Source: Flavobacterium sp. UMI-01 (GTDB lineage: Bacteria > Bacteroidota > Bacteroidia > Flavobacteriales > Flavobacteriaceae). Taken from it: a stretch of 64,000 nt of DNA. The translations under genes were made by a program, and so were the position numbers. The stretch spans positions 434,001 through 498,000 of the forward strand of contig NZ_BPLU01000038.1 of assembly GCF_019656315.1 (NCBI RefSeq), given 5' to 3'. The notes beneath the pieces are model-generated. The model did not search any database, had not been told where the DNA came from, and saw only the letters and a list, made by a program, of their open reading frames with translations. Below, piece by piece: positions 31,348 to 62,005 of the stretch (positions within the stretch are counted from its first letter, which is position 1; each line of letters opens with the position of its first letter).

Positions 31348-31357
31348 TTTTTTACTA

Positions 31358-37601: not shown

Positions 37602-37618
37602 CTGTTAGTTGTATTTTT

Positions 37619-39214: not shown

Positions 39215-39382
39215 TTATTTATTTCTTAGCTCTTTAATACATTCCCTTTTTTAAAAGCAATTGTATTAGCCCATTTTAACTCTAATTAGAACAGTTTTAA
39301 TGTTCCCTTTAATATTTTCACAACACTGGATTTTCACTAATCATTTTAATTAATTTGTACCAATGGATAGGCTGTGGTACAC

Positions 39383-41848: not shown

Positions 41849-41859
41849 CAAGTTATTGT

Positions 41860-43965: not shown

Positions 43966-44019
43966 TGTTTTCTTTCTAATGGTTCCTTTTAATGAAGCCG
44001 ACCTACCTTCGAGCTCCTT

Positions 44020-45570: not shown

Positions 45571-45600
45571 TTAGTTTTTGCTTTAGTTTTTTGTTTTATG

Positions 45601-47013
45601 CTATTTTAATGTTAATGGTTTCGGATTTTCAACATGCCCCACAGGACGTGCATTTTTAGCTATTTCCTCATCAAATTTTTTCATCTCTAGTTGCAGTTTT
45701 AAATAAATATCAGGATGTTGGTCTTTAAGGTTGATTTGCTCTGCACTATCAGTCTTTAGATAATAAAGTGCTTCTTTTCCATCTACAATTCTCAATTTCC
45801 AATCTTTCCATCGTACTGCTTCCAAAACACCCCAATGGGAATAGAAAAAGTATTCGTGTGGACTTTTAGCTTCTTTTGAAAGTACGGAAAAAACATTCTT
45901 CCCATCAATAATACGGTCTTGAGGCATTTTTGCCCCAATTAAATGAGCAAAAGTAGGAAGCACATCCATTGTGGTCATCACTTCATCAATCTCAATTCCC
46001 GCCTTAATTTTTCCTGGCCAACGAATGACTGTTGGCATGCGCATACCTCCTTCTAATGTTTCTCCCTTATGTCCAGAAAATGGTTTATTGGAACCTTTTT
46101 TGGTAGCACCATTATCACTGGTAAATAATACAATCGTATTTTCATCGATGCCTTGCTCCTTTAAGGTCGAAAGAATTTGACCTACCGACCAATCAATCTC
46201 ATAAACTGCTGTAGCATACAAGTCTGAGTTTCCTTTTTTCCCCTTAGCCAATTCCTCAGCGTAAGCTTTTTTAATTTCGGCTGAGGCAGCCAATGGTCCA
46301 TGAGGAATGGGATGCGGTATATAAAGCAAAAAGTTTTCATCCTTATGGTTTTTGATAAACTTGACCGCTTTTTCGGTAATTCTTCTTGTCAAGTTATTTG
46401 GGTCTGGATCAATTTCAATCACTTTTTCTCCATCTAACAGCGGAAGAGGAGGGAAATTGAAATATTTTTGATTAGGATGTTTGGGTGCAATATCGTGACT
46501 ATACGGTAAACCAAAAAACTCTTCAAATCCTTGTTTAGTTGGCAAAAATTCAGGTTGGTCACCCAAATGCCATTTACCAAATATACCCGTTTTATACCCC
46601 ACCGATTGTGCAATTTCAGCTAGCGTAATTTCGTTAGGATTCAATCCGTTGCCATCTGCAGCCAAGCAAACTGGGAATCTTTTACCCAAAGGAATATTTG
46701 GCAAATCTACCACCAAACTAGAAGGCGGTTCCATACTAACCCTTCTTGGATAACAACCCGTCATCAAAGCGGCACGAGAGGGTGTACATAGCGGAGAGGC
46801 TACATAAAAACTGGTCAGTTTAGCCCCTTCTTCAGCCATTTTGTCAATATTAGGGGTATAAACATGCTCTCCACCAAAACAACTTAAATCTCCATAACCC
46901 TGATCATCGGTGAAAATGACCACCAAATTAGGTTTTTTAGTCACTTTTTTTTGACTAAAAACGTAGGAGCTTACAAGCACAATACACGATAAAAAAATTA
47001 CATTAATTTTCAT
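45601..47013 (-). CDS. S1-type sulfatase (i), CTPSR, paralogue of k
   Basis: 470 residues with a signal peptide ending at YVFSQ. Motifs: IFTDDQGYGD, formylglycine motif CTPSR (C76), GKWHLGDQPEF, IPHGPLAAS, TSDNG and LEGGMRMP. It aligns along its length with sulfatase k at 53793-55223, including FFGLPYSHDI and LPLLDGEKVIE, so the two are paralogues (roughly 60 percent identical by eye). The largest differences lie in the loop after ALMTG and around residue 235. The start overlaps the SGNH gene stop by four bases (ATGA), indicating translational coupling of an esterase and a sulfatase. Confidence 0.93.
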   Translation of the reverse strand: MKINVIFLSCIVLVSSYVFSQKKVTKKPNLVVIFTDDQGYGDLSCFGGEHVYTPNIDKMAEEGAKLTSFYVASPLCTPSRAALMTGCYPRRVSMEPPSSLVVDLPNIPLGKRFPVCLAADGNGLNPNEITLAEIAQSVGYKTGIFGKWHLGDQPEFLPTKQGFEEFFGLPYSHDIAPKHPNQKYFNFPPLPLLDGEKVIEIDPDPNNLTRRITEKAVKFIKNHKDENFLLYIPHPIPHGPLAASAEIKKAYAEELAKGKKGNSDLYATAVYEIDWSVGQILSTLKEQGIDENTIVLFTSDNGATKKGSNKPFSGHKGETLEGGMRMPTVIRWPGKIKAGIEIDEVMTTMDVLPTFAHLIGAKMPQDRIIDGKNVFSVLSKEAKSPHEYFFYSHWGVLEAVRWKDWKLRIVDGKEALYYLKTDSAEQINLKDQHPDIYLKLQLEMKKFDEEIAKNARPVGHVENPKPLTLK

Positions 47014-47669
47014 CTATTTATCTCATTTTTTAAGAAACTAGCCATGTGCTTTCCTAATTCTTCATAACCTTTTGGGGCGTAATGAACATCATCATTTCCT
47101 TTTCCGTACTTCAAATGGATTTCTTTGGATGCCTCATAAATATCATTTATTATCACTCCATTGGCTTCCATTACACGTCGAGCAATTGCATTGTATTTTA
47201 TGGCATCCTCTACAAACCTGCCTGCTTCCTTTTCAGGTACATAGGTTGTGGATACAAAAATTAATTTGGCTTTTGTTTTTTTTCGAATTAGTTTCACAAT
47301 GGCATCGAGATTTTTTTCATATTCTTCTGGACTGAAAGTAATTTTACCACGAAGCTTATCCCTTTGTCCTTGAACTTTGGAGTCAGGATGGCGGTAGCAC
47401 AAATCCCATAATCCCCAATTAATCTGAACAATATCCCATTTTCCATCGCCTATCCATTTTTCAATATTCTTTAATCCCGTGCCGGTATGTTGTGCATTCC
47501 CAGGGTTGTGTAAAACTTCTGCCAGATCGTTTAAATCCTTTTTTACAAAAGGCGTATATCCAATAGAAATCGAGTCACCAATGATTAGTATTTTCTTTTT
47601 CTCTTTTTGAAAAGCAGCTGCAACTATTGCAATTACGATTAGAAACGCTATTCTTTTACAATTTTTCAT
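47010..47669 (-). CDS. SGNH/GDSL-family esterase
   Basis: 219 residues with a signal peptide (VIAIVAAAFQ). SGNH blocks are visible: ILIIGDSISIG (nucleophile S33), NPGNAQHTGTG (Gly block), INWGLWD (Asn block) and the C-terminal DDVH (D193, H196) of the catalytic triad. Such small exported enzymes usually deacetylate sugars. It sits directly between GH116 copy 2 (5 bp upstream) and sulfatase i (4-bp overlap), so deacylation, desulfation and beta-glycosidase action on one sugar unit is a reasonable reading. It is distinct in size and sequence from the SASA esterase at 28406. Confidence 0.88.
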   Translation of the reverse strand: MKNCKRIAFLIVIAIVAAAFQKEKKKILIIGDSISIGYTPFVKKDLNDLAEVLHNPGNAQHTGTGLKNIEKWIGDGKWDIVQINWGLWDLCYRHPDSKVQGQRDKLRGKITFSPEEYEKNLDAIVKLIRKKTKAKLIFVSTTYVPEKEAGRFVEDAIKYNAIARRVMEANGVIINDIYEASKEIHLKYGKGNDDVHYAPKGYEELGKHMASFLKNEINR

Positions 47670-47674
47670 TCTAC

Positions 47675-50245
47675 TTAGATTTTAATAGTAAGGCTTTTGG
47701 TTGTAATAATTGTTCCTTTCATTTTTTTGGTACCAACACCCTCTAATGAAAAACTGTCCAATTTTAGTTCACCCGAAAGCACGGTCAAAACCGCTTCTTT
47801 ATTTTTTACTTCACAGGTTCCATAACTGTAGCCATTACTCCAAAAATAAGTTCCGGGTTTAGAAGTAAACTTCATCGATTTGTTCACTGCCGAATATTGG
47901 AAACCTGATGTAGCCAAAATTCCTGCCCAAGCCATCATGCTTCGTGCATAATGATGTCCAGCCTCTGCTTCATTAAACGGACTTCTTTTTCTACCATCAT
48001 AACGGTCTCTAATATTACGGATACACTTCAATCCATCCTCGGTTTGCCCTTCTTGCAACATTCCAATTGCGGCGGTGTATTCAAAACCTGTCATTACTTC
48101 GGTATAATAAGGGAACGGTTTTTCTGGTCGGCCATTTGGATAAGCAGCCATCAACAAAGCCGATTCATCCCCTAAAGCATACGAACGATGGAAATTAGTA
48201 TGCGAACTCATCTGATCTACATAATTGTATTTCATTATGGATTCCATCGTTTTCTTGATATTTTCTTCTTTAGCCAAATAGCCCAAACCTACCAGATGCG
48301 AGAAAACTTGCCCTACCAATTGATCAACCAAAACCCCTTTACCCAACTGAAAATCGGGAGAAGACAGGTTCAAATCATCTTCGTTACTAGTGATATTCAT
48401 TAGTGATTTTGCTACCTTATCCTTTGACATAGGCGGTTGAATGTGTTGCTCGTAATATTCTCCATTGAATAGATTTTTATCCATCCAAGTAGTACCTTGA
48501 TTGTATAAATTTTGGCAGGTTTTAGCAAAAGCCTTATCCCCTACATATTTTGCCATTTCTATCGAAGCCTTGAGCGCTCCTAGATACCAAAATCCCATTT
48601 GGGGATTAGGACCAAAATATTCCACATCCATGGTATTGTGTTGTGAGCCTTCCATCACCCCATTTTTATCTGCATCCCATCCACCTGGAATCCAACAAAA
48701 CTCTAGTGATTTTTTTACTTTTGGCCAATGTTTTTTCAAAAAAGCATCGTCACCTGACAATTGCCAATCGCGGTAAAATTTCATGATACTCCCCATTTGA
48801 CCGTCAGCTGCGGCTTTGCCCCAAGTTTGCGCCTCGGTTAACGGAAGATAAACTCTAAAACTCATTAATCCCGTATCATCAGTCGCGTAGCCATATTCTA
48901 CCTCACGCATGGTTTTGGCTAAATCACCAAACAAGAATGCAGTGGTTTGTTCATAATTCCAAACATGGGTACAGGAACCAAAACAAGAACCAAAATCATC
49001 AAAGAGTCCTTCCCAACCAAACAATTGTCCGCTTTTGATACGGAAAGCCAATTGGGTTCTCAGGTGTGCCAAATTAAACAAGGCCGATTCCTTAATCTCA
49101 AATGGAATATCACTGGTAACCAATGCATTTACAAAAGTTTTAGTTTTAGTTTCCAACTCCTCTAAACGAGGCAATGTTTTAGTAATCACCTCCCATGAGT
49201 CGGTATATTTCATGGTGTAGTAATTGCCCACTGTTGCCTTAAACATTTTTTGAAATCCGGGTTTGTCCCAAGTTTGTCGGTTTGGAAAATGCCAACTAAT
49301 TAAAAAACGGAAGGTTTTTTCTTCACCCGCTTTTAAAGTCGTTTTCACAGCCAATGAACCCATTGGTGCGTCAGATTTTTCATTGACTCTGGGTTCTAAG
49401 ACACCATCCGCACTAAAATCATCCCAAAAATCGAGTCTTTTTTTATCCCATCGGCTGGTCTTTTTTTGCCAATCGGTGCGGTAGCTGGTTTGTCCTTCGT
49501 TTAACGAAACAAAACTCATGGTTCCCCATTGCTCGCTTTCAGGATCTACTCCATTGGTCGTATAATGAAGTCCTTTTACCCCAGACGCTTCACGGTAGGT
49601 ATTTATATTTTTTTTAGCTTCTCCTCTTTTCCCATCAAAGCCAATAAAGTTTTGAATGGTTCCTGCCAAGGATATGCTAATCTCTTTTTTACTGGTATTT
49701 TTTACTGTATAATTTAGTATTACCATTGGAATACTACTGTCGTCAATATTTCCTGGAATCAACGGATTATAAGCGCCAACAACCACTTCGACTGGAAGGC
49801 TTTTATCGGATAAAAATACCTGACCAAAAGGATAAGCTGCTTTGAATGATGCATTGCTAAAACGAGCTAAACCATGATGATTTGAGGTAGCCCCCCAAGA
49901 ACCTTCGTAATACGCTTCATCCGGAGGCCCTTCAAGCAAACGGGTTTGTTTGATTCCTTTATCATCTTCAACGAAAATAGCAAAAAAGGGGCCTTTTTGT
50001 TTGACTGGCCCCCAGTTTTCGAGGGTGGGGTTAAAACCTTTGGCGGGACGATTCATGATTTCCCAATCTTCCAAAGAACCACGTCCTGTCAAGGAAACCG
50101 TTCCGGTACCAATACCCCCAACGGGCATTTTTATTTTTTGAATATGGTCTTGATCATAAGACTTTAAAACAGGCCATTTTGATTGTTGTCCATAGCTGAG
50201 TCCAACAACGAGTGTTGCTAAAAAAATAGTGAAGGTGGTTTTCAT
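47675..50245 (-). CDS. GH116 beta-glycosidase (copy 2)
   Basis: 856 residues with a signal peptide ending near LSYGQQ. GH116 hallmarks: MPVGGIGTGTVSLTGRGSLEDWEI at the start of the sandwich, the candidate nucleophile in HVWNYEQT (E432) and the candidate acid/base in QHNTMDVEYFGPNP (D540). It is co-linear with copy 1 (31358-33907). Differences cluster in the FDDFGSCFGS region before E432, where copy 1 has an aspartate/glycine-rich KDNEGSGDG segment, near the likely active site. Probable beta-glucosidase or beta-xylosidase, with a different accepted substituent from copy 1 (inference). The SGNH gene follows after 5 bp. Confidence 0.9.
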   Translation of the reverse strand: MKTTFTIFLATLVVGLSYGQQSKWPVLKSYDQDHIQKIKMPVGGIGTGTVSLTGRGSLEDWEIMNRPAKGFNPTLENWGPVKQKGPFFAIFVEDDKGIKQTRLLEGPPDEAYYEGSWGATSNHHGLARFSNASFKAAYPFGQVFLSDKSLPVEVVVGAYNPLIPGNIDDSSIPMVILNYTVKNTSKKEISISLAGTIQNFIGFDGKRGEAKKNINTYREASGVKGLHYTTNGVDPESEQWGTMSFVSLNEGQTSYRTDWQKKTSRWDKKRLDFWDDFSADGVLEPRVNEKSDAPMGSLAVKTTLKAGEEKTFRFLISWHFPNRQTWDKPGFQKMFKATVGNYYTMKYTDSWEVITKTLPRLEELETKTKTFVNALVTSDIPFEIKESALFNLAHLRTQLAFRIKSGQLFGWEGLFDDFGSCFGSCTHVWNYEQTTAFLFGDLAKTMREVEYGYATDDTGLMSFRVYLPLTEAQTWGKAAADGQMGSIMKFYRDWQLSGDDAFLKKHWPKVKKSLEFCWIPGGWDADKNGVMEGSQHNTMDVEYFGPNPQMGFWYLGALKASIEMAKYVGDKAFAKTCQNLYNQGTTWMDKNLFNGEYYEQHIQPPMSKDKVAKSLMNITSNEDDLNLSSPDFQLGKGVLVDQLVGQVFSHLVGLGYLAKEENIKKTMESIMKYNYVDQMSSHTNFHRSYALGDESALLMAAYPNGRPEKPFPYYTEVMTGFEYTAAIGMLQEGQTEDGLKCIRNIRDRYDGRKRSPFNEAEAGHHYARSMMAWAGILATSGFQYSAVNKSMKFTSKPGTYFWSNGYSYGTCEVKNKEAVLTVLSGELKLDSFSLEGVGTKKMKGTIITTKSLTIKI

Positions 50246-50291
50246 TTGTTTTGGTTGACGGTGTTACTAGTGTTTTTGTTGTATTTAGATT

Positions 50292-51896
50292 TTATTTTTT
50301 TTGCGCATTGCTTTCACTTCCCCACCAATCTTCATTGGGTTTCCAATCGGGGCTCAACATTTGTTTGCGTTGGGCTTCTAATTTTGGCATGAGTTTGTTT
50401 TTGTTATCTTCCAAACGTTTTTTCCAAGCTGCTTCATCCCATAACGGATCTACTGTAGCATATTCAGTATGCATGGAAGCCAGCCAATCCATAAGCTCTT
50501 TATTCATTTCAGCCAACTTCTTTTTGTTTTTTGAAGCCAAATCGCTTTTTTCCTCTAAATCGGTACTGAGGTCGTATAATTCTTGGTGATTGTCTTCCCA
50601 ATAATGAATCAGTTTCCAATTTTTTTTACGCATGATGGTAACGGGTTTTCCCCCTTGATTGCCATAATGTGGATAATGCCAGAATAAAGGTCTCTCGGCA
50701 ATTTTACCTCCAGTTAAAAGTGGTTTCAAACTCACGCCATCGGCATGGTGCTGCGGTTGCAACGGAATATTCGCTAAATCCAAAAGTGTCGGAAAGAAAT
50801 CGGCTCCTGAAGCCATTTCGTCAATCCTAGTTCCATTTTGTTGTAGCCAAGGCACATAAATGAAATAGGGAACACGTATTCCACCTTCCCATTGATAGCC
50901 TTTTCCACCTCTAACAGTCAATTGGCTAGTAGAAAAGTTGTCTCCTGAAGTTACCCCTCCATTGTCAGAAGTAAAAACGATGATGGTATTTTTGTCAAGC
51001 CCATTTTTTTTAAGGGTTTCCAATACAATCCCTACTGCATCATCGACTTGTTCAATCAAACCTGCATACACTGGGTTGTCTTGGAATTTTCGAGCAGGCA
51101 ATTCCTGTTCCATTTTGAATCCTTTATCCGCAATACCCATTTTCTCAGCTTTGGCTCTGTATTTCTCCCATTTGGCTTTTGTTGTTTGGATAGGAGAATG
51201 TACCGCATAAAACGACAGGTAAGCCAAAAAGGCTGTGTCTTTATTTTTTTCGATAAAAGATGCGGTTTCATTGGCCAATCGGGTCGAAAGTGGCATGCCC
51301 TTTTGGTCATTATAATCTGTTAAATACGGATTGTTATAAGGTGCAAAATAACCTCCACCTGAAGGACTTCCTTTTTCGTATCCTCCTTTGTTGATGTCAA
51401 ATCCATGATCTGTAGGCAGTGATTTTTCTGCTGCACTTCCCAAATGCCATTTTCCGGCAAAAAAAGTTTTATACCCATTATCCTTTAATACTTCTGGTAA
51501 GGTCACATCTTTTTGATCTAAATGATGCTTGTACTCTGGTGGCAACAGTTTGGTATGGCGATTCAATTTTTTCCATTCTTGACCTGATTTAGCCCCATCA
51601 TACATCGTTAAACCATGTCGAGCGGTAAATTGACCGTTTAATATACTGGCTCTGGACGGACTACATACCGAACAAGTGGCATAGCCATTGGTAAAAATAG
51701 TTCCCGACTTAGCAATCACATCAATATTAGGAGTCTCGTAGAATTTACTTCCCATGACACTGAGGTCTTCGTAGCCCAAATCATCCACCAGTATAAAAAG
51801 AATATTATGCTTAGTCGCTGGTTTTTGTTGGCTATAACTATTCGTCGAAGCCAATACCAAACTTAGAAATGCTACAAAATATATCGATTTTTTCAT
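50292..51896 (-). CDS. S1-type sulfatase (j), CSPSR
   Basis: Start placed at ATG 51896 (534 residues, signal peptide ending at NSYSQQ); a GTG 16 codons upstream would run back into the end of the GH97 gene. Motifs: FILVDDLGYEDL, formylglycine motif CSPSR (C78), GKWHLGSAA, YAVHSPIQTT, TSDNGG and WEGGIRVP. The C-terminal extension of about 60 residues (LAEMNKELMDWLASM, then LEAQRKQM) is helical and longer than in the other sulfatases. It lies 13 bp after GH97 and 46 bp before GH116 copy 2. Periplasmic sugar sulfatase, target unknown. Confidence 0.93.
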   Translation of the reverse strand: MKKSIYFVAFLSLVLASTNSYSQQKPATKHNILFILVDDLGYEDLSVMGSKFYETPNIDVIAKSGTIFTNGYATCSVCSPSRASILNGQFTARHGLTMYDGAKSGQEWKKLNRHTKLLPPEYKHHLDQKDVTLPEVLKDNGYKTFFAGKWHLGSAAEKSLPTDHGFDINKGGYEKGSPSGGGYFAPYNNPYLTDYNDQKGMPLSTRLANETASFIEKNKDTAFLAYLSFYAVHSPIQTTKAKWEKYRAKAEKMGIADKGFKMEQELPARKFQDNPVYAGLIEQVDDAVGIVLETLKKNGLDKNTIIVFTSDNGGVTSGDNFSTSQLTVRGGKGYQWEGGIRVPYFIYVPWLQQNGTRIDEMASGADFFPTLLDLANIPLQPQHHADGVSLKPLLTGGKIAERPLFWHYPHYGNQGGKPVTIMRKKNWKLIHYWEDNHQELYDLSTDLEEKSDLASKNKKKLAEMNKELMDWLASMHTEYATVDPLWDEAAWKKRLEDNKNKLMPKLEAQRKQMLSPDWKPNEDWWGSESNAQKK

Positions 51897-51909
51897 TTTT
51901 TTAAGCTGT

Positions 51910-53796
51910 TTAATTAGGTTTAATCCACATACAATTTCCACCACCTGCTACCATTTTGGCTTTGACTACATCTCCTTTTTTAACTGTAGCAGTTCGAATT
52001 CGGTAGGCTTCTGGATTCGTTTTACTGTTCGTTTCCTCTGTATCTTCATAATAGGTAATGGTGTATTCTTTTTTCTCTTTCAAAAAGTCTAAAGCAATAT
52101 CCAATGTGCCACCATCTTGATGAACCGAGCCAATAAACCATTCTTCACCATGTCTTCTTGCGGTTGAAATATAACCATCAATTTTAGCGTGTAATACTCG
52201 GGTTTCATCCCATTTCCCTATAGGTAAGCGCTTGATAAATTCAAACAAATCTTGCTTGGCAGCATAGGCTTCTGGTGCATCCGGAATACACACCAAACCG
52301 CTAAAAATGATTACTGTACGTGCTGCTTCGGCAGTAACGGTGGTAAATAGCGAATTCATTTGTTTAGGCCCTTTTTCACGTTTGCCTGCATTGACACCTG
52401 AAATATCAAAAATACCATTATTCATATCTAATGGTCCTTGAATACCGTTAATTAACGCCATTCGGATAAACGTTTTGGGAGTAAACGCTCTTCTGGAATC
52501 TTGTTGCGCGTGACAAAATTCTTTTGTAATCGCATTAGGATATGTTCGAGAAACCCCTGTTAACGGAACAGGACTATCATGAAAATCAATCAACAGTTTG
52601 TTTTCGGCACTCATTTGGATGGCTTCTCTGGTGAAAGGCACTTTTGGCCCCATGAAACCATATTTAATCCCTTTCATATCCAATGATTTGTAGTATGGGA
52701 ACAAAGCCTCGTCTCCATAATCACCTTGCCTTCTATCGTAATACAACAGCAACGAAACCCCTTTTTCTTTAGCATATTTGATGACTTTGTCTAAATCTAA
52801 TTTTTCAGATAATTTCATATAACCAGGCTTCACTTCGGTGTACCACGCATCATCAATCATGAAATATTCAATATTATTTGCTGCTGCAAAATCTATAAAG
52901 CGGTAATAACTTTCATTATTAATTCCATAGGTAAATCCATCTTTGGCTTGGTAACCATGAACTCTCCAATCCCACAAAGTCAAACCGGGTTTTATCCAAG
53001 AAGGATTTTCAATTTTATTAGGAGCAGCCACATTTAGAGGCACTGTATTGGTCAATAAATCCCCAACTTTGTCTTCGATAAGAATGACACGCCAAGGGGT
53101 AATCACACTTTTTTCTTTCGAAAGAAAATCATTTTTAGAGACCAACTTGTTTTTATTTTTATCAAAATCAAATTTTATCAGGTCAAAGCCCGGAGCACTT
53201 ATCAAATCCGATTCTAAAAGTGACAAAAATTGACCACCTTTATTTTCCACCACCAACGGCATTTTTAATTTGTACTTTTCAGCCTCAGGCTTGGCAAATG
53301 AACTAATTTCAACTGGTCCAACAGGCTCTCCTTCCCCAGCAGGCGAAAACAAATTAGCCGTAGGTTGCAAACCGTATTCTACAAATAACGAAGCTGTTTT
53401 TTTTGAGCTATTGGCAAGTGTAAATCGGAACGCCACACCATTATTATAGGCACGAACGAATAATTTAGACCCAATTCCTTCGTAATCCAAACTTATTTCC
53501 AACTCATTGTAGTGGTCTTTCACTTCATTGAACTGTCCCCAAACGGGTTTCCATGTTTCATTTACTTGTTTGGTTTTAGTCCCCACAATTGTAGCTTTCA
53601 GTCCTTGTAAAATGGAAATTTCCGAATTTAAAATCAGTGGGGTATCCTTACCAAAAAGGGTATATTTTAATGTATTTTCTTTACTATCAAGTACAATTTT
53701 TACAGCTCCGTTAGGCGATTTGATTTCGAGTTGCTTCGCCTTCGCGAAAGTTGTTAAGCTCACTATAAAGCTTAGTACTAAAAGGATTTTTTTCAT
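51910..53796 (-). CDS. GH97 alpha-glycosidase, no Asp at the retaining-nucleophile position
   Basis: 628 residues with a signal peptide ending at FAKAK. N-terminal supersandwich (LEIKSPNGAVKIVLD), a barrel with EYFMIDDAWYTE, LLLYYDRRQ, LLIDFHDSPVPLTG and SRTYPNAITKEF, and a C-terminal sheet. In retaining GH97 alpha-galactosidases the barrel carries KVDF with the Asp nucleophile; here the equivalent is IKYGFMGP (G380), as expected for the inverting, SusB-like alpha-glucosidase mechanism. The remaining GH97 motifs are also loose. The ATG overlaps the stop of sulfatase k by four bases (ATGA). Acts on alpha-linked glucose or galactose ends, probably in the periplasm. Confidence 0.87.
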   Translation of the reverse strand: MKKILLVLSFIVSLTTFAKAKQLEIKSPNGAVKIVLDSKENTLKYTLFGKDTPLILNSEISILQGLKATIVGTKTKQVNETWKPVWGQFNEVKDHYNELEISLDYEGIGSKLFVRAYNNGVAFRFTLANSSKKTASLFVEYGLQPTANLFSPAGEGEPVGPVEISSFAKPEAEKYKLKMPLVVENKGGQFLSLLESDLISAPGFDLIKFDFDKNKNKLVSKNDFLSKEKSVITPWRVILIEDKVGDLLTNTVPLNVAAPNKIENPSWIKPGLTLWDWRVHGYQAKDGFTYGINNESYYRFIDFAAANNIEYFMIDDAWYTEVKPGYMKLSEKLDLDKVIKYAKEKGVSLLLYYDRRQGDYGDEALFPYYKSLDMKGIKYGFMGPKVPFTREAIQMSAENKLLIDFHDSPVPLTGVSRTYPNAITKEFCHAQQDSRRAFTPKTFIRMALINGIQGPLDMNNGIFDISGVNAGKREKGPKQMNSLFTTVTAEAARTVIIFSGLVCIPDAPEAYAAKQDLFEFIKRLPIGKWDETRVLHAKIDGYISTARRHGEEWFIGSVHQDGGTLDIALDFLKEKKEYTITYYEDTEETNSKTNPEAYRIRTATVKKGDVVKAKMVAGGGNCMWIKPN

Positions 53797-55223
53797 TTTG
53801 ATAAAGGTTTCGGATTGTTCACAAAGGCCGCTGGGCGGCTCGTTTTGGCTAGTTTTTTTTCAAATTCAATTGCAGCCGATTTCAGTTTTTCGGCAATTTC
53901 AGGATGTTGTGCTATTACATTCTTTTTTTCACTGATATCATTTTCTAAATCATAGAGTTCAGGCGAAAATTCACCCGCTACACGCATTTTCCATTTTCCA
54001 GACCTTACGGCTTCTAAGCTGTCTCCACTGAAATAAAAGAAGGATTCATAGGGACTTTTGGCTTTGCCTTCTAAAACTGGAAAAATGTCTTTTCCGTCGA
54101 TTACGCGGTCTTTGGGTAACGCAACACCCGCCAACTTACTGAACGTAGGCAGGATATCCATAGCTGTTAAAAGTTCGTTACAAACAGTCCCAGCAACAAT
54201 TTTACCAGGCCAGCGCACTACCGTTGGCATACGCATACCGCCTTCGAATGTTTTTCCTTTTTTACCTCTTAAAGGATAAGCACTCCCAATCGTGGGACCA
54301 TTATCTGAGGTAAAAATCACAAAAGTATTCTCGTCTAAGCCGTACTTTTTCAAGGCATCCAGAATTTGCCCCACCGACCAATCAATTTCACTGATGGTTT
54401 GAGGGTAAATTTTATCTCGGGTTTTGTAGTCAATCGTACCATTTTCTTTTTCCTTTTTCAAGGTTTCTCTCACTCCTTGAGGCGCATCAGCCATAAAATC
54501 AGGAGAGGCTAAAAGAGGACGGTGCGGACTGGTATGAGGCAAGTACACAAAGAAAGGCTGATTTTTATTTTTTTCAATAAAAGCCACGGCTCTGTTGGTA
54601 ATGCGTTGGTTCAAACAATCGGCATCTGGATTTAGTTCGATAACTTTTTCGCCATCCAATAAAGGCAAAGCAGGGAAATTATATTTTTGTTGTTGCTGGT
54701 GAAAAGGGTGAATATCATGACTATAAGGCAAACCAAAGAACTCATCAAAGCCTTGTCGTGTGGGCATAAACTCGGGTTGGTCACCCAAATGCCATTTGCC
54801 AAACATACCTGTTTTGTAGCCTGCTTGTTTCAATAGTTCGGCAATAGTAATTTCGTTTGGATTCAGCCCTTTGGCGTCACCTGCAAGCAGCACAGGAAAA
54901 TTATTTCCCGTTGCCATATTGATACGTTTAGGATAACTTCCGGTCATCAAAGCAGCTCGTGATGGAGTACAAAGTGGCGCTGCTACATAAAAGCTAGTGA
55001 GTTTAGCTCCTTCTTTTGCCATTTGGTCAATTCTTGGTGTTTTTACATGGGTACCTCCAAAACAACCTAAATCGGCATAACCTTGATCATCGGTAAAAAT
55101 AATAATGAAGTTGGGGAGTTTCTTGGACTGTTTCGGTTTTTGTCCATATACAGAAAGTCCAAGTAGTGCTACGAAAAAGTAGCTTAATAAACATTTACGA
55201 ACTTTAAATTCTTTTATTTTCAT
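53793..55223 (-). CDS. S1-type sulfatase (k), CTPSR, first gene of the large operon
   Basis: 476 residues with a signal peptide ending at LSVYGQ. Motifs: IFTDDQGYAD, formylglycine motif CTPSR (C85), GKWHLGDQPEF, SPHRPLLAS, TSDNG and FEGGMRMP. It is a full-length paralogue of sulfatase i. As the promoter-proximal gene of the 24-gene run it should be made in the largest amount. Its promoter lies about 130 bp upstream and carries the conserved TGCAACATTTA element (55359-55415). The GH97 start codon overlaps its stop. Target sulfate unknown. Confidence 0.93.
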   Translation of the reverse strand: MKIKEFKVRKCLLSYFFVALLGLSVYGQKPKQSKKLPNFIIIFTDDQGYADLGCFGGTHVKTPRIDQMAKEGAKLTSFYVAAPLCTPSRAALMTGSYPKRINMATGNNFPVLLAGDAKGLNPNEITIAELLKQAGYKTGMFGKWHLGDQPEFMPTRQGFDEFFGLPYSHDIHPFHQQQQKYNFPALPLLDGEKVIELNPDADCLNQRITNRAVAFIEKNKNQPFFVYLPHTSPHRPLLASPDFMADAPQGVRETLKKEKENGTIDYKTRDKIYPQTISEIDWSVGQILDALKKYGLDENTFVIFTSDNGPTIGSAYPLRGKKGKTFEGGMRMPTVVRWPGKIVAGTVCNELLTAMDILPTFSKLAGVALPKDRVIDGKDIFPVLEGKAKSPYESFFYFSGDSLEAVRSGKWKMRVAGEFSPELYDLENDISEKKNVIAQHPEIAEKLKSAAIEFEKKLAKTSRPAAFVNNPKPLSK

Positions 55224-55358: not shown

Positions 55359-55415
55359 CAAAATTAAAGCTTCTCAAGGCGTTATGATTATCATTTTAGG
55401 TGCCTAAATGTTGCA
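55359..55415 (-). promoter_or_regulatory. Promoter of the 24-gene operon with conserved upstream element
   Basis: On the minus strand TAATTTTG (55366-55359) matches the Bacteroidota -7 consensus TAnnTTTG exactly. No clear -33 TTTG is present. Upstream lies TGCAACATTTAGGCACCTAA (55415-55396). The first T of this element is 49 nt from the T of the -7 box, the same distance as in the promoter at 57445-57501. A poor -33 box with an adjacent conserved element suggests an activator-dependent promoter. The regulator is not in the window. Confidence 0.6.
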
Positions 55416-55830
55416 AAACGCTTCAATTATTTCCCTAAAACCTTTTTTTCAATCAAAATAACAAGTATCCACTACTCTTTAGAATACGATTTTTAGAATT
55501 CGTTTAAAACTGTCTCTCTAATTTAAGTGTACTTTTTTATCATTATCCACTAATTAAAATCAAGAAAATTTCACATCCTTTAAATTTATCTATAAAATTT
55601 TAAAGAAAACCAAACAAACTCATTTCTTCATTTTGAAGCCATACTTTCTGTAGAAAAGCGATTCTTAATGAAACCCTACCTGATTTTTCCGTATCTATAT
55701 TTTTTTGAAAATTACCCAAAACTTTACCCAATAGTAGCTAAAATTGGTATCAATTATGTAAACTTATAAGTCAATCTTACTAATTTATAGTTCATTTTTT
55801 AGTTGAAAGGTGATTTTATCCATACTTTAT

Positions 55831-55875
55831 AAAAAAAATGCATGTGTGAAAACTGAATTTTCCAACACATGCATT
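55831..55875 (-). terminator. Rho-independent terminator of sulfatase l
   Basis: Perfect 11-bp arms AATGCATGTGT (55837-55847) and ACACATGCATT (55865-55875) with partial further pairing in the loop (GAAAA with TTTTC). On the minus strand the stem runs into eight U's (55838-55831). It lies 67 bp past the stop of sulfatase l and separates that gene from the large operon. Confidence 0.85.
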
Positions 55876-55941
55876 ATATATTTGCATTGTCAAACTAACC
55901 TTATTTTCGTTACAAAATGATTTTATAACGTTTAATTCCAA

Positions 55942-57384
55942 TTAGAGTTTAGCCTTTATTTCCTTCATTTTTTTAGGGTCTTTATACAATACTTCTTTAT
56001 TTTCCATTAATCGTTGATGGATATGATAGGTAACTTCCATCCAATCTTTGTCCTCTCGCCAAAGCGGTGGCATCAAATACTCTTCCCAAGTTTCTAATTC
56101 TTTGATGGCATTTTGAAAATCAGGTTTCTCTTTCTTGGATAAATCGATGGTTTCGCCTAAATCATTTTGAAGATTATAAAAGGTATAACCGTAGCGCTCT
56201 AACCGAATCAATTTATAAGCTCCGATTCGGGCCGCTGATTCTTCTAATTTTCGCCAAAACAATTTTCCGTGTGGATGGCCTGTTTTTTCACCTTTCATAT
56301 AAGGTAATAAATTCATACCATCTAAGAGCAATCCTTCTTCTTTCTCAATAGAAGCCGCCGCCATGGAAGTGGTAAAGATATCCAACGAAGAACTCAAGCC
56401 TGAAAAACGTTGACCCGCTGGAATCACGGATGGCCAGCTAACCACAAAGGGGACTCTATGTCCGCCTTCAAACTCGTTTCCTTTCCATCCTTTCAACAAA
56501 CCGCCCCTTGAATTGTTATTTGTGGCTCCTCCATTATCGCTTAAAAAATAGATCAACGTATGCTCCTCTAACTGCAACTCTTTTAATTTTGCTAGTAATT
56601 TTCCAATATTTTCGTCTAAAGACCAAGTCATAGCCGCCAATTGCTGTCGGGGATGATTTTTATATTTGTCTAAATGTTCTTGTTTGGCTTCCATAGGCGT
56701 ATGGACAGCATTGTAAGCAAGATACATAAAGAACGGTCTATCCTTATTCTCTTCAATATATTTAACCGATTGATCTCCGAGAACATCAGTCATATAGCCC
56801 TCAAATACTACCCGCTGTCCATTGTGTTGTAGCATTTGTTTTTGGGTGGGATTTTTTATTGGAAAATAAGACCTACTTCCGGTTTCAAAACCGTAGAACT
56901 CCTCAAAGCCTCTTTGATTGGGATGATCCGATTCGCTGTAACCCAAATGCCATTTGCCTAGTGCTATTGTTTTATAACCTTTTTCCTGAAACACATCAGC
57001 CATCGTAACTACCTCATCCGAAAGACCAATATCTCCCACCGTTTCATCTCCTGTATCATTGGCCTCAAACCCAAAACGCTGCTGGTATTTGCCCGTCATT
57101 AATCCTGCTCTTGAAGGAGCACAAACAGTAGCACTTACATGTGCATCCGTCAAAACGACTCCACTTTGAGCTAATTGATCAATATTGGGCGTTTCTAAAT
57201 CTTGGCAACCCATAAATCCAAAATCAGCATAACCGGCATCATCAATCAGTATAATGATGATATTGGGTTTGGGATTTTTTTTATTTTGGCTTGTCACTAA
57301 AGTATTGACATTTACAGCATTGGCATTGAAAACAAAACCAACCACAACCATAAATCCTCCTACTAACCTGCTTTTTATTTTCAT
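55942..57384 (-). CDS. S1-type sulfatase (l), CAPSR, monocistronic
   Basis: 480 residues with a signal peptide ending at NANAV. Motifs: ILIDDAGYAD, formylglycine motif CAPSR (C88), GKWHLGYSE, NAVHTPMEA, LSDNGG and FEGGHRVP. It is the only sulfatase here outside the large operon: its own promoter (57445-57501) and terminator (55831-55875) frame it. The shared promoter element implies co-regulation with the operon anyway. It faces away from the T9SS enzyme genes, so its sulfate may belong to the same initial polymer (inference). Subfamily and linkage unknown. Confidence 0.93.
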   Translation of the reverse strand: MKIKSRLVGGFMVVVGFVFNANAVNVNTLVTSQNKKNPKPNIIIILIDDAGYADFGFMGCQDLETPNIDQLAQSGVVLTDAHVSATVCAPSRAGLMTGKYQQRFGFEANDTGDETVGDIGLSDEVVTMADVFQEKGYKTIALGKWHLGYSESDHPNQRGFEEFYGFETGSRSYFPIKNPTQKQMLQHNGQRVVFEGYMTDVLGDQSVKYIEENKDRPFFMYLAYNAVHTPMEAKQEHLDKYKNHPRQQLAAMTWSLDENIGKLLAKLKELQLEEHTLIYFLSDNGGATNNNSRGGLLKGWKGNEFEGGHRVPFVVSWPSVIPAGQRFSGLSSSLDIFTTSMAAASIEKEEGLLLDGMNLLPYMKGEKTGHPHGKLFWRKLEESAARIGAYKLIRLERYGYTFYNLQNDLGETIDLSKKEKPDFQNAIKELETWEEYLMPPLWREDKDWMEVTYHIHQRLMENKEVLYKDPKKMKEIKAKL

Positions 57385-57444
57385 TTTATTTGCTTTAAAA
57401 AACTAAAAAACACTAGAGTGAATAGAATAAGCATCCATCATTAT

Positions 57445-57501
57445 CAAAAATAAAGCATACCCCCTGTATAAAAATATCGATTAGGTGGCATAAATGTTGC
57501 A
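57445..57501 (-). promoter_or_regulatory. Promoter of sulfatase l with conserved upstream element
   Basis: Minus-strand TATTTTTG (57452-57445) matches TAnnTTTG. The upstream element TGCAACATTTATGCCACCT plus AA (57501-57481) differs from that at 55396-55415 by one substitution and one inserted base. The element-to-box distance is again 49 nt. GCTTTA directly precedes TTTTG-type bases in both promoters. Leader to the ATG is about 55 nt. Confidence 0.6.
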
Positions 57502-57655: not shown

Positions 57656-57723
57656 TGCAACATTCCAACCCCGTTTTGAATACAATAGACCCCATAGTAA
57701 AACTTTAGCATCCAGTAATTTAG
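57656..57723 (+). promoter_or_regulatory. Possible third copy of the element, upstream of the T9SS operon
   Basis: TGCAACATTCCAACCCC (57656-57672) on the plus strand shares TGCAACATT and the following C-rich half with the two minus-strand elements. A near-match to the -7 box, TAATTTAG, lies at 57716-57723, 60 nt from the element, one helical turn more than in the other two. Suggestive only. Confidence 0.35.
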
Positions 57724-57768: not shown

Positions 57769-58728
57769 ATGAAACAAAATTTTACTTTATTAAAAAATGC
57801 TTTATTAACAACCGCATTATTTATTGGATACACTACTTTACAAGCACAAACGCTTGTGGCTCATTACAAATTTGATAATAGCTTAAATGATGAGACTGGA
57901 ACCTATAATTTATCTGCCTCAACTGGTTTTACTCCTTTATTTACCGAAGCAGGACATGATGGAACCCCGAATGGTGCAGTTTCTGGATTTGCAGGTATAG
58001 ATTACTTAGAATCTGCCATAGACTTTGAAATTGATGGCAATGAATCTCGTACGATTGTAGCATGGATTAAAACCAATAATACTTCTGGAACTCGGGCTAT
58101 CGTTGGTTTAGGATCAAATGCGGTAAATTACCAAAGGCATACTTTTGGAATAGCTTCAGCAAAACCTAGATTCGAAATCAAAGGGACAGGTTTTGCTTCC
58201 CCCACAAGTGTAAATACCGATGTATGGGTTCACGTAGCTTGTGTTTATGACAATGCTAACAAAAAGGCTTCTCTTTATGTAAACGGTGCATTAGATGGTT
58301 CTGCAGATTGGTCATCGACCGTACCTAATACAGTGCAAACGAAACTTAGAGTAGGAAATGATTATAATGTAGCTGAACCAGGCCCACAAACTAGAGGTTG
58401 GGTAGGTGCCATGGATGATGTACGAATCTATGCAGGTGCAGCCACTGATGCGCAAATACTGAGTTTATATACGAACGCAACCTTAGCGGTAAACGAAGTA
58501 AGTACCGAAAACCTAAATGTGTATCCTAACCCTGTAAAAGATTATTTGTATTTCTCTACAAACAATGTTGATTCTGTTGAAGTGTACAATCTATTAGGTG
58601 CTAAACTTACTTCTCAAAAAATAGATGGAAAACTTGATATGACTTCTTTTGCAAACGGCGCCTACTTGATTAAATGTTTCAATACCGACGGAGCACTTAT
58701 AAGTACTGTAAAAACCATTAAAGAATAA
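57769..58728 (+). CDS. LamG-domain protein with T9SS sorting domain
   Basis: 319 residues: signal peptide ending at TLQAQ, a LamG/concanavalin-like domain (about 30-235; LVAHYKFDNSLNDETG, RTIVAWIKTNN, GWVGAMDDVRIYAGA) and a type A T9SS C-terminal domain (about 245-319; LNVYPNPVKDYLYF). There is no catalytic domain, so it is most likely a surface or secreted glycan-binding protein. The fold is also shared by some glycosidases and lyases, but no active-site signature is seen. It is the first gene of the plus-strand unit, and the GH30-like gene starts 4 bp after its stop. It may present the polymer to that enzyme. Confidence 0.85.
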   Translation: MKQNFTLLKNALLTTALFIGYTTLQAQTLVAHYKFDNSLNDETGTYNLSASTGFTPLFTEAGHDGTPNGAVSGFAGIDYLESAIDFEIDGNESRTIVAWIKTNNTSGTRAIVGLGSNAVNYQRHTFGIASAKPRFEIKGTGFASPTSVNTDVWVHVACVYDNANKKASLYVNGALDGSADWSSTVPNTVQTKLRVGNDYNVAEPGPQTRGWVGAMDDVRIYAGAATDAQILSLYTNATLAVNEVSTENLNVYPNPVKDYLYFSTNNVDSVEVYNLLGAKLTSQKIDGKLDMTSFANGAYLIKCFNTDGALISTVKTIKE

Positions 58729-58732
58729 TATT

Positions 58733-60262
58733 TTGAAAGAAAACAATCTAAAAAACATACTAAGAAACAGCGTGCTATTGGGCATGCTGTTTTTTCAGTT
58801 TACGGCATTTTCACAAAGTGACATCATCACGATACAGCCCGAACAACAAAAACAAACCGTTACTTTTGGTGGCGATGCCAAACTGACTATCAAAGATTAT
58901 GCTGAGGGCAATACTGCCTCGGTATCTAATAAACTATTTGGCGACATGAACTTAAAGGTGTTACGTGTCCCCATATTTGCGCTGCAACCCATTTCGAATG
59001 GTATTTACGACAATGTCATAACCGTAATCAATGCTGTTAAAGCTGTGAACCCTAATGTAAAAATATTTGCCAGTATTGCCAACGGAGATGGTTATGGTAC
59101 GGATTATCATGGTGCAGCCAAGTTCCCATCGGGATGGAGAGGTTGTTGTTCCTATAATGTCTATAGCCTGAATTTAACTACGTATGCAGCCTACTTGGAT
59201 AGTTTTATGGACAGAATGAGCGCTGCTAACATTACCATAGACTATTTAGGGCCATATAACGAAGACCCAGGAGATGATTCTGATTATTTAAAAATTAGCA
59301 ATCAGATGACCAAATTAGGAAATACAAAAATCTTTGGATTAGAAAGATGGGGATTGCTTACTTCCATTGCTGAAGTAGATGATTTAGAAGACAGAACCGA
59401 CTTTATAGGTTCTCATTTTTATGACGATGGCACAATTCCTGAAGCGGATTGGGATGCTAAATGGGGAGAACTTGTAACCGCATCCGCAGACCCAGTGTGG
59501 TACACCGAGGCTACTCGTTACAGTACCAATGACAATATTGGCAATCTTATTGCGGGTATAGACAATATTTTTCCTGCCATTAGAGGAGGTGCTGAAGGAG
59601 TTATTTTTTACCAAGTATGCAAACGCTTTGTATATGCCAATGGCTCGGCTCAACCTATAAAATACAGTGGCTTTAAAAACATTGTTAATAATGCTGAGGG
59701 TAAGGTAATAGCATCTAATTCCACTAACGGTAATATAAAAGTGGTTGTTTTTGGTAACGAATCTACTTTAGATGTTCATATTATTAATAAAAATGCAACG
59801 GATAACACGGTTAATTTACAACTGCAAAATTCCTATTTAGGCTCTGGAACGGTGACACAAAAAATCTGGACATCGAGTGCTACTGGACAGTCAAGTACTT
59901 ATTCTTTATCCAGTGAAGCGAATTGGGATATTGTAGTGCCTGCTAACTCGTATTCGCACCATAAAATTACTTTAAACAAACCGCTCTTAGGACTTAAAGA
60001 TGCTTCTTCCAAAAGCAATTCAGTAATTAAAATAACACCTAATCCTTCATCCAATGGTCATTTTAAATTGCAACTTCCTGAACATACTACTGAGGAAAAG
60101 GTTGTCTTAAAAATGTTCTCTTTAGAGGGAAAAGAAGTTTTTTCAGAAGTAAAAAAATATGAACAGAATCTTTCCATAGACACAAAACTTCCTTCAGGAT
60201 TATATCTTCTTTCTGTTACTATTGCTGAAAAAACCTATCATACAAAAGTGATTGTTAAATAA
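58733..60262 (+). CDS. Secreted GH30-like (clan GH-A) glycosidase with T9SS domain, copy 1 (TTG start)
   Basis: 509 residues from a TTG start. That start is supported because MKENNLKNIL aligns with MKKNNLKFLE of copy 2 and gives a normal signal peptide (FFQFTAFSQ); no suitable ATG exists. The catalytic barrel runs from TVTFGGDAKLTI to about residue 330. The acid/base is in DYLGPYNED (E177) and the nucleophile in VWYTEATRYS (E259), followed by a GH30-type beta-sandwich and a T9SS C-terminal domain (about 430-509). CC in RGCCSYNVYS is conserved in both copies. Export through T9SS suggests action on the polymer outside the cell, possibly endo-acting. The subfamily is not recognised. Confidence 0.8.
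   Translation: MKENNLKNILRNSVLLGMLFFQFTAFSQSDIITIQPEQQKQTVTFGGDAKLTIKDYAEGNTASVSNKLFGDMNLKVLRVPIFALQPISNGIYDNVITVINAVKAVNPNVKIFASIANGDGYGTDYHGAAKFPSGWRGCCSYNVYSLNLTTYAAYLDSFMDRMSAANITIDYLGPYNEDPGDDSDYLKISNQMTKLGNTKIFGLERWGLLTSIAEVDDLEDRTDFIGSHFYDDGTIPEADWDAKWGELVTASADPVWYTEATRYSTNDNIGNLIAGIDNIFPAIRGGAEGVIFYQVCKRFVYANGSAQPIKYSGFKNIVNNAEGKVIASNSTNGNIKVVVFGNESTLDVHIINKNATDNTVNLQLQNSYLGSGTVTQKIWTSSATGQSSTYSLSSEANWDIVVPANSYSHHKITLNKPLLGLKDASSKSNSVIKITPNPSSNGHFKLQLPEHTTEEKVVLKMFSLEGKEVFSEVKKYEQNLSIDTKLPSGLYLLSVTIAEKTYHTKVIVK
60025..60262 (+). repeat. T9SS sorting-domain repeat, copy 1
   Basis: 238 nt encoding the C-terminal sorting domain. It is about 96 percent identical (10 differences counted by eye) to 61768-62005, while the catalytic parts of the two genes are far less alike at DNA level. 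Confidence 0.9.
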
Positions 60263-60460
60263 ACACTTTTAAAATATAAGGCTAGAAAAAACTAGCCCTA
60301 TGTTAAAATCTTGTTCTCAACTGAAATAAGTTGGTATAAATTCATTTTATGAGTAATCAAAAAATCATTCGTTTTCTAGTAAACTACATACAGACTTTTT
60401 TTCAAAACTGAATCGTTCAGACAATTGACAAAATTAACTAACCCTTATACCCAAATAACC

Positions 60461-62005
60461 ATGAAAAAAAACAATTTAAAATTCTTAGAAAAAAAATTAT
60501 TCTTAGCACTATTAGTTTTAACCACTGCTACTGCTTTTTCACAAACTATTACAGTGAATCCTGCAGTAAGTAATCAAACCGTTACTTTTGGTGGGGATGC
60601 AAAATTAACCATAGGCAGTTATGCTAATGGCAGTACCGCTACTATATCTCAGAAATTATTTGGAGATATGAATTTAAAAGTATTAAGAGTTCCAATATTT
60701 GCTTTACAACCTATTACAGATCCTATTTATGATAATGTGATTACTGTCATAAATTCTGTAAAAGCAGTCAATCCAAACGTGAAAATTTTTGCAAGTATTG
60801 CTAATGGTGATGGTTATGGAACTGACTATCATGGAGCTGATAAATTTCCTGCTTCTTGGAAAGGTTGCTGTTCTTATAATGTTTATAGCTTAAATTTAAC
60901 TACTTATGCTGCCTATCTGGATAGTTTTATGACTCGAATGACTAATGCCGGAATCACAATTGATTACCTAGGGCCTTGGAACGAAGATAGTGCCGATGAT
61001 TCTGATCATTATAAAGTTTTTAGTCAAATGACCAATTTGGGAACTACTAAAAAAATTGGATTAGAACGTTGGGGATTATTAACTTCCATATCCGATGTAA
61101 ATGATGTAGAAGATAGAACAGATATTATTGGGTCTCATTTCTATGACGACACGACTATTCCTGAAGTGGACTGGGATACCAAATGGGCAAATCTAGTTTC
61201 GGAATCTGCAGACCCTGTTTGGTACACCGAAGCTACAAGATACAGTACAAATGATAATATCAATAATCTTGTAGCAGGCATGAACAATATCTTTCCAGCA
61301 ATTCGAGGAGGTTCAGAGGCCGTAATTTTTTATCAAGCTTGCAACCGAATTGTTTATGCTAACGGAGGTGTTCCTCCAATTAAATACTCTGGATTTCAAA
61401 ACATCGTAAATAATGCAGCGGGGAAAGTTTTGAATTCAACTAGTACTGATAGTACTATTAAAGTGGTTACTTTTGGAAATAACTCAACATTAAATATTCA
61501 TATTTTAAATACGGGGACCACAACTAAAACTGTTACTTTAAGTTTGTCAAATGGCTACAAGGCCAATGGTTTAATTACAAGAAAAATTTGGACATCAACC
61601 GATACTGGAACAACGAATACATATACTTTGAATGGCAATGCTACTTGGAATATAACAGTCAATGCTAATTCATACAACCACCTCAACATCCCTTTAAATC
61701 AAGCCGTAAGTAGCAAGATAACTGAAGGAAAAGAGATTTTAGTTGATGATTCAAATGAAACTTCAGAAATTAAAATAACACCTAATCCTTCAACCCATGG
61801 TCATTTTAAATTACAACTTCCTGAACGTACTACTGAGGACAGGGTTGTCGTAAAAATGTTCTCTTTAGAGGGAAAAGAAGTTTTCTCAGAAGTAAAAAAA
61901 TATGAACAGAATCTTTCCATAGACACAAAACTTCCTTCAGGATTATATCTTCTTTCTGTTACTACTGCTGAAAAAACCTATCATACAAAAGTGATTGTTA
62001 AATAG
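60461..62005 (+). CDS. Secreted GH30-like (clan GH-A) glycosidase with T9SS domain, copy 2
   Basis: Start at ATG 60461 (514 residues; an upstream in-frame TTG is unlikely). Signal peptide ending at ATAFSQ. Same layout as copy 1: VTFGGDAKLTIGSY, acid/base in DYLGPWNED (E175), nucleophile in VWYTEATRYS (E257), GH30-type sandwich, an extra linker (TEGKEILVDDSNETSE) and a T9SS domain. Catalytic domains of the two copies are roughly 75-80 percent identical in protein but much less in DNA. It is separated from copy 1 by 198 bp with a small GGCTAG hairpin, so it may have its own promoter. It ends at a strong terminator (62031-62071). Confidence 0.8.
   Translation: MKKNNLKFLEKKLFLALLVLTTATAFSQTITVNPAVSNQTVTFGGDAKLTIGSYANGSTATISQKLFGDMNLKVLRVPIFALQPITDPIYDNVITVINSVKAVNPNVKIFASIANGDGYGTDYHGADKFPASWKGCCSYNVYSLNLTTYAAYLDSFMTRMTNAGITIDYLGPWNEDSADDSDHYKVFSQMTNLGTTKKIGLERWGLLTSISDVNDVEDRTDIIGSHFYDDTTIPEVDWDTKWANLVSESADPVWYTEATRYSTNDNINNLVAGMNNIFPAIRGGSEAVIFYQACNRIVYANGGVPPIKYSGFQNIVNNAAGKVLNSTSTDSTIKVVTFGNNSTLNIHILNTGTTTKTVTLSLSNGYKANGLITRKIWTSTDTGTTNTYTLNGNATWNITVNANSYNHLNIPLNQAVSSKITEGKEILVDDSNETSEIKITPNPSTHGHFKLQLPERTTEDRVVVKMFSLEGKEVFSEVKKYEQNLSIDTKLPSGLYLLSVTTAEKTYHTKVIVK
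61768..62005 (+). repeat. T9SS sorting-domain repeat, copy 2
   Basis: 238 nt, partner of 60025-60262. The boundary of high identity falls just before the codons for IKITPNPS, exactly at the start of the sorting domain, and continues to the stop codon. Confidence 0.9.

Follow-up and report, generated by a model that had tools for sequence, protein, structure and literature searches.

The question raised by this locus is why a 24-gene operon and a single sulfatase gene share one short element at the same distance from their promoters, and which protein would act on it. The window, meaning the whole 64,000-nucleotide stretch that was analysed, belongs to contig C37 of Flavobacterium sp. UMI-01, and a window position equals the C37 position minus 434000. 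The two elements were found where the earlier note had placed them, TGCAACATTTAGGCACCTAA at 55415-55396 and TGCAACATTTATGCCACCTAA at 57501-57481, both on the minus strand. The distance it had given was also recovered, since the first T of each operator lies 49 nt from a perfect TAnnTTTG -7 box on the same strand, TAATTTTG from 55366 (55359..55366) for the 24-gene operon and TATTTTTG from 57452 (57445..57452) for the single sulfatase gene. When the 21-nt pattern was searched with up to three mismatches, 2 matches were found in the window against a mean of 0.01 expected, and two matches were obtained in 0 of 100 shuffles. Across the 4.02-Mb genome, GCAACATTTAN{2,8}CCTAA occurs twice, at these two sites, and the reversed-pattern control gave 0 occurrences. 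On its own, the 11-mer TGCAACATTTA has 7 copies in the genome against 2 in the reversed control; a perfect box stands at 49 nt in 3 of the 7 copies and is missing from the other 4. The signal is thus carried by the longer element and the spacing. The reading argued below, to which we assign a probability of about 0.92 from the sequence comparisons, is that the element is a candidate operator of the hybrid two-component system (HTCS) encoded at C37:539085-543236, a membrane-anchored polysaccharide sensor that would turn on sulfatase, glycosidase and transporter genes, and that its copies are class-II-like activator sites.

The two elements had previously been aligned with a one-base insertion. 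An ungapped alignment fits the other sites instead, and the gapped version was rejected because the ungapped one places GAT (columns 24-26) at an equal distance from the box in both sites. The second conserved block comprises columns 23-28 at a fixed distance from the box, reading TGATAA in the first site and CGATAT in the second, and the CCTAA common to both elements with a one-base shift is incidental. Defined in this way, the class A operators are 33 nt long. The operator of the 24-gene operon lies at 55383..55415 on the minus strand, with its distal half-site TGCAACATTT at 55415-55406 and its proximal half-site TGATAA in a 22-bp register, and that of the single sulfatase gene lies at 57469..57501 on the minus strand. 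The surroundings of the elements, which had been described as unrelated, are not wholly so, as columns 23-28 are conserved at a fixed distance from the box. The similar box context GCTTTAnTTTTG that had been pointed out does not extend beyond this pair, being absent from the remaining sites of the set. The TAnnTTTG box itself is perfect at both sites and at 7 of the 9 class A sites of this genome, the other two boxes being TTAATTTG and TAATTTTA. A -33 element (TTG or TTTG with a 15-24 nt spacer) was found at 4 of these 9 sites and at neither of the two sites first described.

A perfect inverted repeat, TTTAGG-CA-CCTAAA, is also present in the first site and nowhere else in the window, and from this a palindromic repressor operator of the LacI or GntR type, centred on TTTAGGCACCTAAA (55395-55408), might be proposed. 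This proposal is considered extremely unlikely and was rejected because the palindrome is seen in one site only; neither the second site nor the further sites listed for this genome and its relatives have it. In addition, the Pfam scan of the locus proteins, which covered part of the ORFs, returned neither a LacI nor a GntR domain. Among the AraC, HTCS and LacI types that had been named as possible regulators, HTCS is the one supported, and LacI is absent from the Pfam matches scanned.

The site set was extended across the genome, which comprises 4,020,383 bases in 76 contigs. The pattern TGCAACATTTA-N38-TAnnTTTG gave three perfect matches, the two sites above and C37:507617+, and two further matches with one mismatch, C37:531386- and C37:538918-. 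These five best pattern matches all lie within a 50-kb stretch that begins in the window and continues past its end. Weaker pattern matches at C37:649679-, C37:504920- and C37:522266- fit the longer consensus, and a weight matrix from the resulting eight sites added a ninth, C37:507390-. Other weaker matches misfit the longer consensus: with up to three mismatches there were 48 matches against 43 in the reversed control, and another loose pattern gave 163 matches against 285 in the reversed control, with no signal past the best few. All nine class A sites are on one contig and intergenic, each with T[AT]nnTTT[GA] at exactly 49 nt, and the farthest of them (C37:649679-) is 152 kb past the window end.

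When only the 33 operator columns were scored over 247.7 kb, with a matrix built from the eight sites of that stretch, those same eight sites took the top eight scores. Over the whole 4.02-Mb genome, the eight best matches to R1, a sequence-only model of 20 sites from six other genomes in ungapped alignment, were 8 of the 9 sites (E 3e-7 to 0.011), where the 20 sites had been picked by a matrix that included those of this genome, so that the two sets are not fully independent. The site of the 24-gene operon ranked 3 (E 6.4e-6) and that of the single sulfatase ranked 6 (E 6.8e-4); a partial match on contig C66 came ninth (E 0.019), ahead of the ninth site at rank 10 (E 0.03). The outcome that the earlier note had named as refuting, a motif at random places over the genome, was not what this genome-wide scan gave. 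The matrix from the 20 foreign sites, applied to the 247.7 kb, gave ten places above 8.5, namely the eight sites, the site of the HTCS gene and one intra-ORF place. Those eight sites have T[AT]nnTTTG at exactly 49 nt, although the box was left unscored by the matrix.

The genes behind the sites are of several kinds. Behind the first site stands a presumed operon of 24 ORFs on the minus strand (13706..55223), taken as continuous from its gaps of at most 169 nt. All 24 ORFs were scanned with Pfam, and the row includes 11 sulfatases, two GH95, two GH116, a GH97, a GH36, a GH43-type protein and others. The single gene (55942..57384 on the minus strand, C37:489942-491384) encodes a sulfatase of 480 aa by its Pfam match, PF00884. 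Sulfatases behind class A sites are encoded at C37:487793-489223, 489942-491384, 503298-504785 and 537318-538844. The other products behind class A sites are a GH2 protein with DUF4982 (C37:507703, plus strand), a Glyco_hydro_cc protein (C37:505083-507260), a SusC-like receptor (C37:518877-522122), a LacZ-type GH2 protein (C37:528038-531277), which is the first of a row with a GH29 and two sulfatases, and a beta-helix protein of 934 aa that carries a GH141 insertion domain (C37:649344) and whose site is C37:649679(-) or L230:13679(-). The C37:649344 protein resembles that encoded at C37:455390-457771 in the 24-gene row; its site is about 110 kb from the HTCS gene, and it would be a distant member of the regulon.

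As both genes first compared encode sulfatases, and sulfatase paralogs are abundant in the region, chance or the common ancestry of two duplicated sulfatase promoters was weighed as an explanation. Its probability is negligible. The same element stands before unrelated genes (SusC-like, GH2 and others), and the genome-wide statistics also oppose chance (2 occurrences of GCAACATTTAN{2,8}CCTAA against 0 in the control, and the top eight R1 matches), which together refute it. One negative result concerns the SusCD pair nearest the HTCS gene (C37:531769-536822, L077), which, unlike most of its neighbours, had no site in front in the matrix scan of the 247.7 kb. Other control, or read-through from 537318-538844, are candidate readings for this pair.

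Conservation at orthologous loci, another check that had been suggested, was found for the operon head sulfatase, which has the same site in two other genera. Orthologs of this first gene with the site in front are present in genomes G383 (69%, site at C1:757425) and G121 (71%, site at C1:2358136), where the sites, found by pattern, are 170 kb and 1.36 Mb from the HTCS gene. For the single sulfatase, a 74% ortholog was found in G323, where it immediately follows a site-bearing sulfatase gene. Both genes would appear to belong to the regulon elsewhere too, the single sulfatase by way of a presumed operon. The claim that a selected site ties the single sulfatase to the large operon is supported for several reasons. 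First, there are nine such sites in this genome. Secondly, their spacing to the sigma-A box is fixed. Third, the same site stands before orthologs in other genera.

The gene of the candidate regulator (C37:539085-543236, L078:1385-5536; 1383 aa) lies 41 kb past the window end. Its product is a single chain of a periplasmic sensor propeller, Y_Y_Y, HisKA, HATPase, a receiver and an AraC-type HTH, and each of the six scores above the Pfam cut-off. The gene is divergent from the site at 538918 and has a further site of its own in front at C37:538950+. It adjoins SusD genes (C37:531769-533541 and 512153-513910), with SusC-like TonB-plug proteins encoded nearby (C37:533577-536822, 518877-522122 and 513922-517020), and genes for a rhaM-family mutarotase, an MFS transporter, a short-chain dehydrogenase and an amidohydrolase follow behind it. 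The HTH residues are nearly invariant across 19 HTCS orthologs, and in three orthologs compared with the HTCS of this genome the DNA-binding part is 74-86% identical and the whole protein 53-62%. The S/CHIP receiver motif is highly conserved in most but not all HTCSs, and deviating HTCSs are reported, according to the available part of one study (PMC11253607). In the HTCS described here the receiver loop reads HNIP, and 17 of the 19 orthologs are without the full motif, which is present in the other two, G229 and one Aquimarina. With HNIP in place of S/CHIP, the reported inhibitory contact between receiver and HTH may differ in this HTCS; S/CHIP is not a defining HTCS feature, given the deviating HTCSs in that part of PMC11253607. 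Two further HTCS genes flank the region, at C37:350364-354656 and C37:569470-573534.

The co-occurrence of site and regulator was analyzed in 397 genomes of the family, including this one, which were drawn evenly from a larger group. The pattern TGCAACATTN{39,41}TAnnTTTG was found in 40 genomes, with 50 matches listed, four of which are known sites of this genome. The other 46 listed matches, which share the first nine bases and the box by construction, were scored on columns 10-33 as derived from the nine sites of this genome, and the scores were bimodal, eight at 11.5-22.4 and 38 at -3.5 or below. All eight high scorers have a gap of 49, with 48-50 allowed, and they are spread over five genomes. 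An HTCS ortholog (E <= 1e-280; 48-62% identity besides the protein itself) was present in 16 of the 397 genomes. The five other genomes with high-scoring matches are all among the 15 other ortholog carriers in 396 genomes (5/5, Fisher 3.8e-8). The converse is weaker, as a match of at least 17 was found in 9 of the 15 other ortholog genomes within the stretches read. Among the remaining six, the 48-nt form is present at the HTCS gene in G011, G236, G212, G129 and G382, and G235 gave nothing convincing in the stretch read, where there was one weak match without a box.

Further genomes gave a similar picture. A comparable HTCS ortholog was present in one of 59 further relatives (G401), with the site beside the gene. 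A named-genome search gave four loci, of which two were useful, both contigs of uncultured Aquimarina with the site beside the HTCS gene. Ten new ortholog neighbourhoods (370 kb) contained 14 matches above 11, in 8 of the 10 genomes, against 0 in a control of ten non-ortholog HTCS surroundings (380 kb). Two of these 14 are intra-ORF and several are weak and boxless; scores of at least 17 were reached in G162, G169, G207 and G348. It could still be argued that the same operator serves a different regulator, for example the HTCS paralogs at C37:350364 or C37:569470, which are on the same contig. This is very unlikely. The DNA-binding parts of these paralogs are 42% and 34% identical to that of HTCS 539085, the sites accompany the ortholog of 48-62% identity, with none found around HTCSs of 40% or less, and the promoter region of HTCS 539085 itself contains sites. 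Because the sites co-occur with further genes of the locus as well, linkage by itself is no proof of the identity of the binding protein. What the comparisons show is a set of sites with fixed spacing, a defined set of promoters, co-occurrence with the HTCS and a direct repeat in the regulator's own promoters.

The direct repeat is of interest in view of Bacteroides, in which HTCS operators are described as direct repeats with two conserved sites on average 21 bp apart (PMC3878776, Ravcheev et al. 2013, available part). Exact GCAACAT is present upstream of the HTCS gene in 15 of 19 orthologs and absent there in G207, G348 and G235; the nineteenth, G383, is counted in the 19 with a mis-set gene start. 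A second copy 22 bp on is perfect in G229, G162, G169 and G129 and partial in others. For the 18 plus-strand occurrences in the HTCS upstream regions, the mean match was 4.6 of 7 at offset 22 versus 1.2-2.9 elsewhere (offsets 12-33). At 14 of the 19 HTCS promoters, the repeat stands back to back, at 30-34 bp, with a site facing the divergent gene. The target promoters combine a strong distal half with a degenerate proximal one, the consensus of 29 sites being TGCAACATTTAAACCCCTTAATTGAGAATTATA, 16 free bases and TAAATTTG. In a column-by-column repeat test of the 29 class A sites, no offset from 9 to 28 was distinct from the rest, and inverted repeats scored no better at best; only the regulator's own promoters show the repeat clearly. 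Five genomes (G212, G129, G011, G236 and G382) have both the proximal half and the box shifted one base closer, to 21 bp and 48 nt. Since the two shift together, what stays constant is the spacing between the proximal half and the box. Operator columns 14-17 of the sites in this genome and its relatives read either CCCC-like or GGTG/GGGT-like, as if there were two versions.

The spacing was also analyzed independently of the longer consensus, starting from 475 GCAACA[AT] in 1.19 Mb of ortholog neighbourhoods, those of this genome included. Of 95 TAnnTTT[GA] boxes, 29 were at offset 49, 10 at offset 60 and 8 at offset 48, and no other offset between 30 and 81 had more than 4. In a control of 380 kb with 135 GCAACA[AT], 0 of 15 boxes were at 49 or 60 and one was at 48. 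Some of the spacing matches are due to chance: 3 of the 8 at 48 are unlike the site, and C37:575793, at 49, lies at a gene start and is without the proximal half. The offset of 60 defines a second class, class B, which is also present in the window. There the operator TGCAACATTCCAACCCCGTTTTGAATACAATAG lies at 57656..57688 on the plus strand, the other strand than the single sulfatase's site, with ACAAT at columns 27-31, and its first T is 60 nt from the box-like TAATTTAG (57716..57723, plus strand), a slightly looser box. Of the three genes behind it (57769..62005, plus strand), one encodes a LamG-domain protein and the other two encode products that match GH59 weakly; all three products carry type IX sorting tails. 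At the thresholds used, the 33-column class A matrix missed this operator, which was not listed in the earlier note either. Sites like it precede related genes in other genomes, with the box at 60 in G348 and G002, at 59 in G323 and none there in G207.

When the sites were sorted by their proximal half, the class A rule placed 28 of 46 boxes at 49, 5 at 60 and 3 at 59. With the class B rule (ACAA at columns 27-30), 6 of 7 boxes were at 60 and one at 59, but the ACAA pattern was chosen after the offset-60 matches had been seen, so this rule is no independent test; the offset-60 peak itself had been seen earlier without ACAA. In the control for these rules, 9 class A-like sites were boxless and 6 class B-like sites had one box, at 59. 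The rules used do not separate the two classes cleanly. On balance we lean slightly towards one HTCS driving two promoter types one helical turn apart: class A, at 49/48 nt, whose proximal half TGAGAATT is degenerate and borders on the core promoter, and class B, at 60 nt, whose proximal half (TGnnACAAT) is closer to the distal one. If this is true, the face of the DNA occupied by the regulator would be what matters, and the proximal half-site would reflect a trade-off of binding strength against overlap with the core promoter.

A mechanism can be proposed from the position of the operators. In Flavobacterium psychrophilum, TAnnTTTG is located at -12 to -5 (PMC9723704, available part). With the box at -12 as in that species, class A operators would extend from about -61 to -29 and class B operators from about -72 to -40. 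The class A operator would then span the -33 region, where the two promoters first described have no TTG/TTTG. Two AraC-type domains would occupy two half-sites 22 bp, or two helical turns, apart on one face of the DNA, the strong distal half TGCAACATTT and the weak proximal half TGA[GT]AATT, and the class A and class B geometry would fit class II and class I positions. Bound by the HTCS of this genome in its phosphorylated form, the operator would serve to recruit sigma-A RNA polymerase in a class-II-like activation, activation through binding being the step we infer from the operator position in preference to repression. The alternative is that the element represses or does both, with the HTCS holding the promoters off without ligand or limiting its own gene. 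The direct repeat before the HTCS gene, mostly without a good box at 49 or 60 (G212 and G129, at 60, are exceptions), is in its favour. This alternative is nevertheless unlikely, as the target operators stop short of the box on its upstream side, at a distance that is fixed or shifted by one turn, which would be expected of an activator, and HTCSs are described as polysaccharide utilization regulators, many of which belong to loci with raised expression on their glycan (PMC3878776 and PMC11253607, available parts).

Under the activator reading, the trigger would be the sensing of oligosaccharides of a sulfated, fucose- and galactose-containing polysaccharide, which would make these the probable inducer. 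Such a substrate is suggested by the sulfatases, the GH29, GH95, GH141-like and LacZ-type GH2 proteins and the genes behind the HTCS, with the sugars assigned according to the specificities of these enzyme families. The finding is well above chance and larger than first noted. The regulon is new and the kind of system, HTCS, is known; the promoter geometry is clear and conserved. Rows of sulfatase and glycosidase genes of unassigned control thus become a defined regulon with one candidate sensor, and the digested polysaccharide can be sought through the ligand of the sensor domain. Genes outside the cluster, such as C37:649344 with its GH141 insertion domain and beta-helix, become assignable to the same pathway. 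The result also provides an HTCS operator that keeps a fixed position with respect to the sigma-A box in different genera, a feature of which no report was found in the open-access literature searched.

In class I and class II activation of the AraC and CRP type, the activator site abuts the core promoter or sits one or more turns upstream. In the present case the promoters are Bacteroidota sigma-A promoters (TAnnTTTG), and the proximal half-site differs between the two positions. The carrageenan regulon of Zobellia galactanivorans is similar in that it belongs to a marine flavobacterium and includes scattered sulfatase and glycosidase genes under a positive regulator of the AraC family (PMC5698469, available part). 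However, its cgrA is an AraC family transcription factor, and no operator is given in that part of the report (PMC5698469). The HTCS regulons of Bacteroides thetaiotaomicron, as far as the available text of PMC3878776 describes them, share the regulator type, and their targets are SusCD, glycosidase and sulfatase genes near the regulator together with distant genes. They also share two blocks about two helical turns apart, on average 21 bp there and 22 bp here (21 in five genomes), a comparison that covers the described layout. The present system differs from them in belonging to another bacterial family, in its half-site GCAACAT and in the marked asymmetry of distal and proximal halves at the targets. 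It differs as well in that the -7 box lies at a fixed 49/48 or 60 nt, and in the back-to-back pair of sites at the regulator gene.
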